From Natronosalvus halobius (GTDB taxonomy: Archaea; Halobacteriota; Halobacteria; Halobacteriales; Natrialbaceae), in contig NZ_CP099997.1 of assembly GCF_024138145.1 (NCBI RefSeq), forward strand, positions 2,356,001 through 2,420,000: a stretch of DNA of 64,000 nt, given 5' to 3'. The notes beneath the pieces were generated by a model. That model had not been told where the DNA came from and did not search any database. It was given only the letters and a program-made list of their open reading frames with translations. The position numbers and the translations under genes were made by a program. This document shows, one piece after another, positions 26,380 through 58,362 of the stretch (the first letter of the stretch is position 1; each line of letters opens with the position of its first letter).

Positions 26380-28338
26380 TCACTCCTCGGCTGCTGGAAG
26401 CGTAAACGAGAACGTCGACCCCTCGCCAGGCTCGGACTCGACCCAGAGACGCCCGCCGTGGCGTTCGACGATCCGTTGACAGAGCGCGAGGCCGATACCG
26501 GTTCCGGCCTGTTCGTCGCGACTGTGGAGGCGTTGAAACACCTCGAAGACCAGATCCTGATCCTCGGGATCGATGCCGATCCCCTCGTCGTGAACTGAGA
26601 CCAGCCATCGTCGGCCGCGTCGATCGGCCGTCACTCGAATGCTCGGGGGTTCGTTACCACTGTAGGCGATCGCGTTCGTGAGGAGATTCTGGAACACCTG
26701 TCGTAGCTGGCTGACGTCGCCCTCGACGTGGGGCAGTGAGCCGACCGCGATCTCGGCGCTGCTCTCTTCGATCTGAAGGTGAAGATCCTCGATCACGTCG
26801 CCGACGACGTCGTCCAGGTCGACCGGTTCGAGCGGATCGCCCTGCGTATCCACTCGGGCGTACTGAAGGAGGCCGTCGATCATCTCGCGCATGCGGTCGG
26901 CGCCGTCGACGGCGTACTCGAGGAACTCCTCGCCATCCTCGCCGAGGTCGTCGCCGTAGCGCCGTTCGATCAGCTGGAGGTAACTCGAGACCATCCGCAG
27001 GGGCTCCTGGAGGTCGTGGCTGGCGGCGTAGGCGAACTGTTCGAGGCGCTCGTTCGAGGCCTCGAGTTTTCGCTGGCGCTCGACCTGTTCGGTGACGTCC
27101 TGGGCGATGGTCATCCCACCGAATACCGCGCCGTCGTCGGCGGTGAGCGGAACGGCACGAATAATCCACTCCCGGTGAGCATACTCCACGTCGACCGTTC
27201 GCGTCTCGCCCTCGAGGGCGTCCTGGAACGCGGCCTCGAGCGTCTCGCCGACTTCGTCCGGCCACGCCTCCCTGACGAATTGCCCCTCGAGGTCGCTCGA
27301 GGAAACGGGCAGGTCGTCGAAACCCCGTCCCGCCGCGAGCGTGTACCGGAGGTCGTCGTCGAACATCGTGACGATCCCGTTCGGGAAGTTCTCGGCGAGG
27401 GTGCGGTGGCGCTGTTCGGATTTCCTGAGTCGCCGCTGGTGTCGCTTTCGCTCGGTGACGTCTCGATCGGAGACGATGATCGAGACGACGTCACCGTCGT
27501 CGTCCGTCACCGGTCTGAAGGTCCCGTTGAGGGTGTAGCGCTCGCCGTCCGGCCGGGTGAGGTCGGCCTCGAACTCGACGTACTCGCCCGCTGCGGCGCG
27601 TTCGGTCCACTCCTTTACATCGGCCCGGACGTCGTCTCCCTCGCCCCACCACGGCGTCTCCCAGAATATCTCGCCGGTCACGTCGTCGAGGTCGGCGTCG
27701 ATGTACTCCATCGCCGTCTGGTTGATGTCCATCACCGTCCCGTCTGGCTCGAGCAGGCCGACCAGGATGTTGGGATCCTCGAAGATCGCCTGGAATCGTC
27801 GCTGTGTCCGCGTGTTTTCGATCGCCGTCGCGAGTACGTTGGCGACGCTCTGGACGAAAGTCGCGTCGTGCTCTTCGAACTCGCACGCCTCGGTCGTGTG
27901 GACGCCCAGGACGCCCCACGGGTCGTCCACCGATCCGATGATGACGCTCACACCGCTTCGGACGTCGTGATCGGTCAGCAAATCGGGTCCGGAGAACCGT
28001 TCCTCGGTGCGAAGGTCGTCGACCACGACCGGCTCTTCGGTCAGAAGGGTATAGCCGGCCTGGGAGTCCCGGTCGGTCGACACCGTCCCGGTCCCCACCA
28101 GTCCGTCGTCCCAGCCGACCCCCTGTCGAAGCAAGACCGCCTCCCCGTCGGGAAGCAACTCGAGGACTTTAGCGTACTCGGCGTCGAGCGTCTCGACGAG
28201 TTCGACTGTCGCGTCGTGCATCAGCTGGTCGAGGTCGTCAGTCTCGAGCCCCTGTTGGCCGAGTTCGGCGATGGCTTCCTGCTGGCGGATGTAGGCGGCA
28301 AGTGCCGGATCTGCGTCTCCGTACGGAGATGACGGCAT
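26380..28338 (-). CDS. GAF-PAS-PAS sensor histidine kinase
   Basis: A 652-residue cytoplasmic kinase without membrane spans. It has a GAF domain (about 25-178), PAS 1 (about 182-298), PAS 2 (about 310-418), and a dimerisation/phosphoacceptor domain with FAYAASHDLQEPLRMVSSYL (His441). The HATPase domain has the N-box FQNLLTNAIAYS (Asn551, Asn555), DEGIGIDPED and GTGIGLALCQRIVERHGGRL. All catalytic boxes are intact. This HisKA subtype (SHDLQEPLR) is shared with phytochrome-like and haloarchaeal light/redox sensors. No response regulator gene is adjacent. The signal is unknown. It converges on asnB, with the tandem repeat between the two. Confidence 0.9.
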   Translation of the reverse strand: MPSSPYGDADPALAAYIRQQEAIAELGQQGLETDDLDQLMHDATVELVETLDAEYAKVLELLPDGEAVLLRQGVGWDDGLVGTGTVSTDRDSQAGYTLLTEEPVVVDDLRTEERFSGPDLLTDHDVRSGVSVIIGSVDDPWGVLGVHTTEACEFEEHDATFVQSVANVLATAIENTRTQRRFQAIFEDPNILVGLLEPDGTVMDINQTAMEYIDADLDDVTGEIFWETPWWGEGDDVRADVKEWTERAAAGEYVEFEADLTRPDGERYTLNGTFRPVTDDDGDVVSIIVSDRDVTERKRHQRRLRKSEQRHRTLAENFPNGIVTMFDDDLRYTLAAGRGFDDLPVSSSDLEGQFVREAWPDEVGETLEAAFQDALEGETRTVDVEYAHREWIIRAVPLTADDGAVFGGMTIAQDVTEQVERQRKLEASNERLEQFAYAASHDLQEPLRMVSSYLQLIERRYGDDLGEDGEEFLEYAVDGADRMREMIDGLLQYARVDTQGDPLEPVDLDDVVGDVIEDLHLQIEESSAEIAVGSLPHVEGDVSQLRQVFQNLLTNAIAYSGNEPPSIRVTADRRGRRWLVSVHDEGIGIDPEDQDLVFEVFQRLHSRDEQAGTGIGLALCQRIVERHGGRLWVESEPGEGSTFSFTLPAAEE

Positions 28339-56367: not shown

Positions 56368-58362
56368 CTACGGGTGACGCTCGAGCGTCGTCACGTCGGA
56401 CACCTCTATTCGCGTCCCGCCGTGCTGGCCGCTGGTCACCGTCAGCGACCAGTCGTGGGCGTCGGCGATTGCCCGGGCGAGAGCGAGACCGAGGCCGCGC
56501 TCCTCGTCGGCGTCCTCCCCACGTGACTCCAGGTCGATCACCCGGTCGTGATCGGTCGGCGGGATCTCGGCGGCGTCGTCCATGAGGAAGAAGCCGCGTT
56601 CGCTCGAACGGGGATCGTCGAAGCCGAGCAGTCCGACCTGGATCGTGACCGATCCGTCGGCGCGGGCGGCCGCATCGTCGAAGATCGTCTGGAGGAAGTG
56701 ATCGAATCGCTCCCGGTCGGCCCGGAGGGTCGCGTCGGCGTCGACGACCACGGCGGGGCGATCGAGACGGGAGTCCTCGACTGCGTGTTCGATCGCCGAC
56801 GCGAGGTCGATCCGCGTCCGGGGGCCGACCGCTGTCGCGTTTCGGGCGAACTCCCGAATGTCGTCGACGAGGCGTTCCGTGCGATCGAGCGTCGTCGAGA
56901 CGGCGTTTTCGGCGAGCGGAAACTCCCACTCGCCGGGCCGATCGGGTTCCTCCTCGAGCGCCGTCGCGACGGCCTCGAGGTGGCGCTTGAGGTCGCTCGA
57001 GAGTACGTTCGCCACGCTCTCGAGGCGTTCGGTCTGGTGTTCGAGCTGGGTCGTCCGATCCTCGAGTACCTGCTCGCGGATCGCACGATCGAGCGCCGCG
57101 CGGCTGTTCTCGGCGAGCGTCGAGAGTAACTCGACGTCGGTGTCGTCGAAGTTCGCGACCCGCTTCGATCCCGTCATCAGGATACCGTGGGTGCCGATCG
57201 GCGCAATTATCTCAGAGCGGATCGGTGTGTCGGGATTGTAGAGGCCGTCGGCTTCCTGCAGGTCCTCGATGTGTCTGGTCTCGCCGGCCTCGAAGACGTC
57301 CCAGACGAGACCCTCACCGGGGTGGAATCGGGGGAGGCCGCCGAACTCGTCGTGCGCGCCCGCGGTGCCGGCGACGGGGTCGAGGTAGCCGTACTCGTCG
57401 TCGAGCAACCAGACGCCGCTGATCGGAAGGTCAAGGAGGTCGCTCCCGGCGTGGACGGCGATCGCACAGATCTCCTCGGGATCGCTCGACTGCAGGAGCC
57501 AGCGCGTGACCTCGTGCAGCGAGGTCACCACCCGCTCGTACTCGCGCTGGTCGGTGACGTCGCGGGCGATGCACGCGAGATTCGCCGAGCCGTGGTCGAC
57601 CGGCACGACGCTGACCTCGGCGACCCGATCGGCGCCCGTCGCGTCGGTGTAGGCCACCTCGAACGTTCGCTGGGCCGCGCTGCCGACGTCGACGTCGCTG
57701 AGCGCGCGGCCGACGTGGACGGCGTCGTCGGCGTCGACGGCGGCGAGGTCCAGGAGGGCCTCGACGTGTTCACCTCGCAGGTCCCTCGCGTCGGTGTCGA
57801 AGGCACGTTCGACCGTGGCATTGATCGAGAGGATCCGGTTGTTGTCGTCGAGGGTGACCACGCCGTCCTGGATCGCCTCGACGACGGCCGTGTTCCGGGC
57901 GAGTTTCGTCTCCTGTTCCTTTCGCTCGGTGATATCGCGCATGGACACCGAGAGCCCGTTCTCGGCGGGCCAGGCCCGGGCTTCGAACCAGGTCTCGAGC
58001 GGCGTGTGGTACACCTCGAAGGAGACCGGCACCTGTTCGTCCATCGCCTGGTAGAAACCGTCGGGGAACTGGGTCTCGACCGTCTCGGGGAACTCGTCCC
58101 ACATGACCCGCCCGAGGAGGTCCTCCCGGGAGCGCTCCAGGAGCGCCTCGGCGCGCTCGTTGAGGTACGTGAACCGAAAGTCGGTGTCGAGGGCGAAGAA
58201 GGCGTCGCGGACGCGGTCGATCATGGGAACGGTTCGGAGGGTCACCGGCGACCACCCGCCTCGAGGGCGACGGGTCGGCGGCGAGGCGTCGTGACTCGCG
58301 GCGCTAGCCGACTCGTCCGCGACACCGACCGAACGCGCCTGTCTCTCATTCCGTTGACTCAT
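56368..58362 (-). CDS. PAS-PAS-GAF sensor with degenerate histidine-kinase core
   Basis: A 664-residue protein without membrane spans. It has PAS 1 (about 45-150), PAS 2 (about 158-278) and GAF (about 285-430), then a coiled linker (VLEDRTTQLEHQTERLESVA). Where the phosphoacceptor His of SHDL should be, the sequence is LSSDLKRHLE (Ser456). The HATPase N-box positions, normally Asn, are Thr559 and Asp563 (FLQTIFDDAAARAD), and the G1 box is DDAAEIP instead of D-x-G-x-G. Only the G2 box GLGLALARAIADAHDWSL remains normal. It therefore looks like a pseudokinase: a sensor that could bind partners but not phosphorylate itself. No receiver gene is adjacent. Confidence 0.85.
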   Translation of the reverse strand: MSQRNERQARSVGVADESASAASHDASPPTRRPRGGWSPVTLRTVPMIDRVRDAFFALDTDFRFTYLNERAEALLERSREDLLGRVMWDEFPETVETQFPDGFYQAMDEQVPVSFEVYHTPLETWFEARAWPAENGLSVSMRDITERKEQETKLARNTAVVEAIQDGVVTLDDNNRILSINATVERAFDTDARDLRGEHVEALLDLAAVDADDAVHVGRALSDVDVGSAAQRTFEVAYTDATGADRVAEVSVVPVDHGSANLACIARDVTDQREYERVVTSLHEVTRWLLQSSDPEEICAIAVHAGSDLLDLPISGVWLLDDEYGYLDPVAGTAGAHDEFGGLPRFHPGEGLVWDVFEAGETRHIEDLQEADGLYNPDTPIRSEIIAPIGTHGILMTGSKRVANFDDTDVELLSTLAENSRAALDRAIREQVLEDRTTQLEHQTERLESVANVLSSDLKRHLEAVATALEEEPDRPGEWEFPLAENAVSTTLDRTERLVDDIREFARNATAVGPRTRIDLASAIEHAVEDSRLDRPAVVVDADATLRADRERFDHFLQTIFDDAAARADGSVTIQVGLLGFDDPRSSERGFFLMDDAAEIPPTDHDRVIDLESRGEDADEERGLGLALARAIADAHDWSLTVTSGQHGGTRIEVSDVTTLERHP

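Follow-up and report, generated by a model that had tools for sequence, protein, structure and literature searches.

What role can a histidine-kinase fold play once catalysis is gone? The question can be asked of a gene in the window analysed here, a stretch of 64,000 nucleotides from the haloarchaeon Natronosalvus halobius, whose product has the architecture of a sensor histidine kinase but neither the phosphoacceptor His nor the Asn residues of the ATP site. Pseudo-histidine kinases are so far known from a few bacteria and methanogens.

Gene extent, domain layout and catalytic residues

The initial annotation placed the gene on the minus strand as the complete open reading frame 56368-58362, with its start at 58362. 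A codon comparison of 76 orthologues favours a later start, the GTG at 58243-58245. In the reading with 664 residues, codon 40 is a start codon in 70 of the 76 orthologues (GTG in 60, ATG in nine and TTG in one), and the Val in this column is encoded by GTG in 60 orthologues versus GTC in a single one. Moreover, there is an in-frame stop immediately upstream of codon 40 in many orthologues. Because of this start-codon column and these upstream stops, we moved the start to 58245, which most likely yields a protein of 625 residues. Residue numbers throughout are those of the 664-residue reading, Ser456 corresponding to Ser417 in the 625-residue protein. When the product of the reading frame was scanned against Pfam, two PAS domains, a GAF domain and HATPase_c were matched, the last weakly (PF02518, 31.9 bits) yet over the cut-off, while a HisKA match was absent. 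The features of the gene are as follows.

56368..58245, minus strand: pseudo-histidine kinase gene, GTG start, 625 residues (start-codon column and family-wide orthologues)
57913..58224, minus strand: PAS1, residues 47-150 (PF08448 match; mean pairwise identity 0.73 among family orthologues)
57538..57897, minus strand: PAS2, residues 156-275 (PF13426 match; evolves fast, mean identity 0.55)
57091..57486, minus strand: GAF, residues 293-424 (PF13185 match; most conserved domain, mean identity 0.76 in the family)
56827..57057, minus strand: DHp-like helical hairpin without phosphoacceptor His, residues 436-512 (predicted helices; no Pfam HisKA match)
56383..56820, minus strand: CA, HATPase_c-like domain with degraded ATP site, residues 515-660 (PF02518, 31.9 bits; fold kept in the model)
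56995..56997, minus strand: Ser456 at the His position (orthologue alignment)
56686..56688, minus strand: Thr559 in place of the first N-box Asn (0/78 orthologues have Asn)
56674..56676, minus strand: Asp563 in place of the second N-box Asn (only 4/78 orthologues have Asn)
56563..56580, minus strand: G1-box remnant DDAAEI (Asp595 in 70/78 orthologues; both Gly replaced)

An AlphaFold model built from 15 sequences (mean pLDDT 71, pTM 0.44) comprises PAS2, GAF, a pair of long helices (residues 407-471 and 482-509) and a CA-like alpha/beta sandwich. The pLDDT is below 50 for residues 29-99, 472-488 and 501-511, so that PAS1 is for the most part poorly modelled, as is the DHp loop, and the ATP-lid region of the model is unreliable. 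When submitted to Foldseek, the model matched solved histidine kinases (such as 4zki, 8f71 and 3dge), with kinase-regulator complexes among the matches, and also the NifL-NifA complex (9qq6). The DHp hairpin and the CA fold thus appear, in the model, to have been retained.

Translation bore out each of the substitutions named in the initial annotation. Ser456 stands in place of the His, within VLSSDLKRHL, and Thr559 and Asp563 occupy the positions of the two N-box Asn, both within FLQTIFDDAAARA. The G1 region reads FLMDDAAEIP, while the G2 box, GLGLAL, is retained. The alignment that was to reveal orthologues with the His or Asn still in place was run family-wide and beyond, and strain-specific decay was not seen. 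Among 78 distinct orthologues, the His column holds S, N, T, E, G, D, R or K and never His, which, together with the Asn counts listed above, strongly supports the reading as a pseudokinase. Since neither the His nor the first N-box Asn occurs in any of the 78, these losses are not due to chance or sequencing error. The Asp of a DxGxG G1 box is present, but its glycine pair is kept in none of the orthologues read. The G2 glycines are mostly retained (70 and 71 of 78), a lineage of family f7 (g42) having lost G2 in addition to the N box and G1.

The surroundings of the His site are highly constrained: across family members, L454 and S455 never vary and D457 and L458 hardly do. Residues 456 and 460 (His+4, the phosphatase-motif position), by contrast, rank among the most variable, with residue 460 varying more than any other in the aligned stretch. 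As judged from this alignment, no substitute phosphoacceptor is fixed at the His site, because its column is highly variable inside a near-invariant LSxDL motif, and the phosphatase motif is gone as well, because residue 460 is not conserved. Weak binding of a nucleotide is possible, since most sequences still have Asp595 and the G2 box.

Distribution, origin and selection

Of the 125 family genomes searched, 121 carry an orthologue (110 of the 111 high-quality ones), nearly always as a single copy, and each of the eight genomes of the genus has exactly one. Orthologues are also carried by members of two further families, f7 and f10, and are absent from genomes G028 and G062. In one genome the gene lies in two frames, through a frameshift or a sequencing error (G060:C1:113040-114910, L093), and one f7 genome has a shortened version composed of GAF, DHp and CA, the PAS domains being absent (G259, L208 7306-8538).

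In a tree spanning GAF to CA, 32 degenerate sequences form one clade (100/100) to the exclusion of 19 intact kinases, showing a single origin. The f10 members have Gly at the His position and keep the second N-box Asn and one Gly, which suggests that the His was lost early and that erosion of the ATP site came later. On these comparisons, the loss of kinase residues is old and conserved, and is not strain decay.

The protein is also under selection. In five within-genus pairs, the whole protein has a dN/dS of 0.06-0.20, DHp one of 0.05-0.41 and CA one of 0.08-0.24, values indicating that purifying selection acts on all domains. Mean identity within the family is 0.76 for GAF, 0.73 for PAS1, 0.65 for DHp, and 0.55 for both CA and PAS2. 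In eight shared genomes, GAF identity is 0.78 in the pseudokinase versus 0.60 in an intact paralogue, while CA identity is alike in the two (0.62 and 0.62). Constraint is thus concentrated on the sensing part of the protein, GAF and PAS1.

Candidate partners and mode of action

We consider it likely that this gene encodes a catalytically dead, soluble PAS-PAS-GAF pseudo-histidine kinase that works by stoichiometric contact instead of phosphotransfer or dephosphorylation. Since the catalytic machinery has been lost and the protein is nevertheless kept near-universally, action by protein contact rather than phosphate transfer is probable. PAS1 and GAF would sense an intracellular signal, and the resulting change would travel down the coiled coil and the DHp-like four-helix bundle of a presumed dimer. 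The output would be a stoichiometric protein-protein contact, as in DivL and NifL. One candidate partner is a REC-HalX regulator linked to purL, which could not be the sole one, and the other main candidate is a true kinase paralogous to the pseudokinase.

Whether the regulator is a dedicated partner can be judged from the gene neighbourhood. Most loci in three families, and most genera other than that of the window, have the order purL > HalX-RR > < pseudokinase, the last two genes being convergent, and the phosphorylation residues Asp, Thr and Lys of the regulator are intact in essentially all sequences scoring above 205 bits. If the regulator is phosphorylated, some other protein or agent must therefore do so. 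The window genome carries, at C1:1383013-1385985, a paralogous HalX-RR (51% identity) convergent to an intact kinase (QIVSHDLRNPL), a pair that is the intact counterpart of the regulator/pseudokinase arrangement. All this would fit a pseudokinase that binds the regulator, perhaps in its phosphorylated form only, and sequesters or presents it, with phosphate coming from other kinases or acetyl phosphate. However, the regulator has been lost and the pseudokinase kept in at least 13 sampled genomes from eight genera, a count in which regulators elsewhere in those genomes scoring below the E-value cut would be missed. Conversely, G028, G150 and G231 have the regulator but no adjoining pseudokinase. 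The DHp is not relaxed where the regulator is missing, its divergence relative to purL being 2.18 without the regulator versus 2.81 with it. A mirror-tree test found no DHp-regulator coevolution after correction for purL (r = 0.03, for species that are not independent and regulator distances dominated by a few degenerate copies). Furthermore, convergent genes are not co-transcribed, and the block is rearranged in the genus of the window. In the window genome, purL and the regulator lie together at C1:2050778-2053695 (the regulator itself at G000:C1:2050778-2051362), beside a CheW-like gene and 360 kb from the pseudokinase, and in the congeners G001 and G007 the parts are about 18-22 kb apart. 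A dedicated partnership is thus rather doubtful. Because several lineages have lost the regulator and kept the pseudokinase, and no coevolution was found, the regulator is a possible partner, yet neither the only one nor the reason for which the pseudokinase is retained.

Several further observations concern these regulators. In three genomes of the genus (G000, G004 and G007), the gene immediately downstream of the HalX regulator encodes a single-domain CheW-like protein (G000:C1:2050225-2050677, L172), in the place held elsewhere by the pseudokinase. In two f7 genomes, that place next to the regulator is taken by a gene for a protein of 309 residues whose N-terminus is HTH-like (G150 and G231; L206 6559-7488 and L207 7378-8307). 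Some purL-linked regulators are themselves degenerate: L081 has Gly for Asp, and L103 and L225 lack the conserved Thr and Lys. The f4 regulators (54-58% identity), considered as an ancestral pairing, were set aside, as they are not purL-linked and have no adjacent kinase in the loci read. Several regulators of this nearest other group (L211, L215 and L229) immediately follow an IMP-dehydrogenase-like gene, and HalX regulators hence adjoin purine genes twice, purL and guaB-like. As for the neighbours of the pseudokinase in the window (MFS, Lrp, trmG10-like, TBP and nucleoside hydrolase/transporter genes), they were rejected as partners because they are not general neighbours; MFS and Lrp directly adjoin it only in the window genome and in the two genomes nearest to it (G002 and G004). 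Indeed, none of the candidate partners is conserved in every lineage.

The pseudokinase might instead heterodimerise with an intact kinase and tune its activity; by a coarse count, the cell has roughly 35-40 of these. N and G1 motifs can be recognised in most of the 45 HATPase_c matches of the window genome, and SHDL or AHEL in many, by a coarse motif scan that includes some gyrase- or CheA-like proteins. Conservation of the DHp and coiled coil independently of linkage to the regulator agrees with such pairing, as do the precedents of DivL-CckA and ChrS-HrrS, but no given kinase is linked by neighbourhood in the lineages examined and the DHp sequence is unlike the intact haloarchaeal SHDLRNPL type. 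The kinase at 26380, which had been put forward as a partner (L145, G000:C1:2382389), is intact but of a different subtype (YAASHDLQEPLRM), and no locus examined links it to the pseudokinase; we therefore rejected it. Heterodimerisation is a possibility that we hold tentatively. Like the partnership with the regulator, it is a specific version of the stoichiometric reading, and the probabilities of the three overlap. An atypical active kinase is improbable. Such a protein, lacking the H-box as RdmS/MsmS do, would bind and hydrolyse ATP and phosphorylate another protein, for which there is an archaeal precedent (PMC11784639) and with which the mostly kept Asp595 and G2 box are compatible. Against it, both N-box Asn, which coordinate Mg, and both G1 Gly are lost in nearly all orthologues, and the f7 g42 lineage is without G2 too. 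Even less credible is a relic in the course of being lost: CA and PAS2 are the fastest-evolving parts, and the G060, G028 and G062 genomes have a split gene or none, but retention across the family is near-universal and dN/dS is far below 1, DHp and CA included.

Returning to stoichiometric contact as the preferred reading, the dead kinase module could perhaps serve as an allosteric hub acting on a true kinase or another regulator, in a core sensor of the family that has no dedicated regulator. We advance this version with reserve; if true, it would define an archaeal class of pseudokinase signalling of which we found no description in the literature searched. Whatever its partner, this is a pseudo-histidine kinase of one origin that is near-universal in a culturable haloarchaeal family, and it offers natural comparisons between genomes in which the regulator is present, moved, degraded or lost. 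A 'histidine kinase' annotation would mislabel the gene in more than 100 genomes.

Comparison with known systems

No description of this pseudokinase family was found in the open-access literature searched. Its closest intact relatives are haloarchaeal PAS/GAF kinases of the SHDLRNPL type, which share its fold and have a similar domain order (30-37% identity) but in which, unlike in the pseudokinase, the His, N-box and G1 are intact. NifL is a PAS-PAS-DHp-GHKL anti-activator that binds ADP and whose partner, NifA, is encoded beside it. It resembles the pseudokinase, as we picture it, in combining a kinase-like architecture with stoichiometric control of a partner, but the pseudokinase has no such partner gene adjacent.

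DivL of Caulobacter, a sensor of DivK~P with neither kinase nor phosphatase activity, is likewise a clade-conserved multi-PAS sensor with a DHp-CA fold that lacks the phosphoacceptor His (PMC4211667). It acts without catalysis, the mode that we propose for the pseudokinase (PMC4211667). The two differ in how the kinase module was altered. In DivL, the His site is fixed as Tyr (with one Ala) and the N, G1, F and G2 boxes are kept (PMC4211667), whereas the pseudokinase has no DivL-type conserved Tyr in any of the 78 orthologues, its His site is unconstrained and its N and G1 boxes are lost. It is, in addition, archaeal, while DivL is bacterial and has known partners. A further precedent is frameshifted ChrS, which works via another kinase (PMC9491836).

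Among archaeal proteins, the MA_type 2 kinases RdmS/MsmS of Methanosarcina are also sensor-kinase-like and lack the H-box. They bind and hydrolyse ATP, although autokinase activity of RdmS was absent on re-examination (PMC11784639), while in the pseudokinase the ATP site is degraded at both the N-box and G1. The 'HisKA, no HATPase' proteins of an archaeal census are, as is proposed for the pseudokinase, non-enzymatic kinase-like sensors, but they exemplify the reverse loss, with the His kept and the HATPase domain absent (PMC5847659). The haloarchaeal pseudokinase differs from DivL, RdmS/MsmS and the census proteins in that acceptor and ATP site are both lost.
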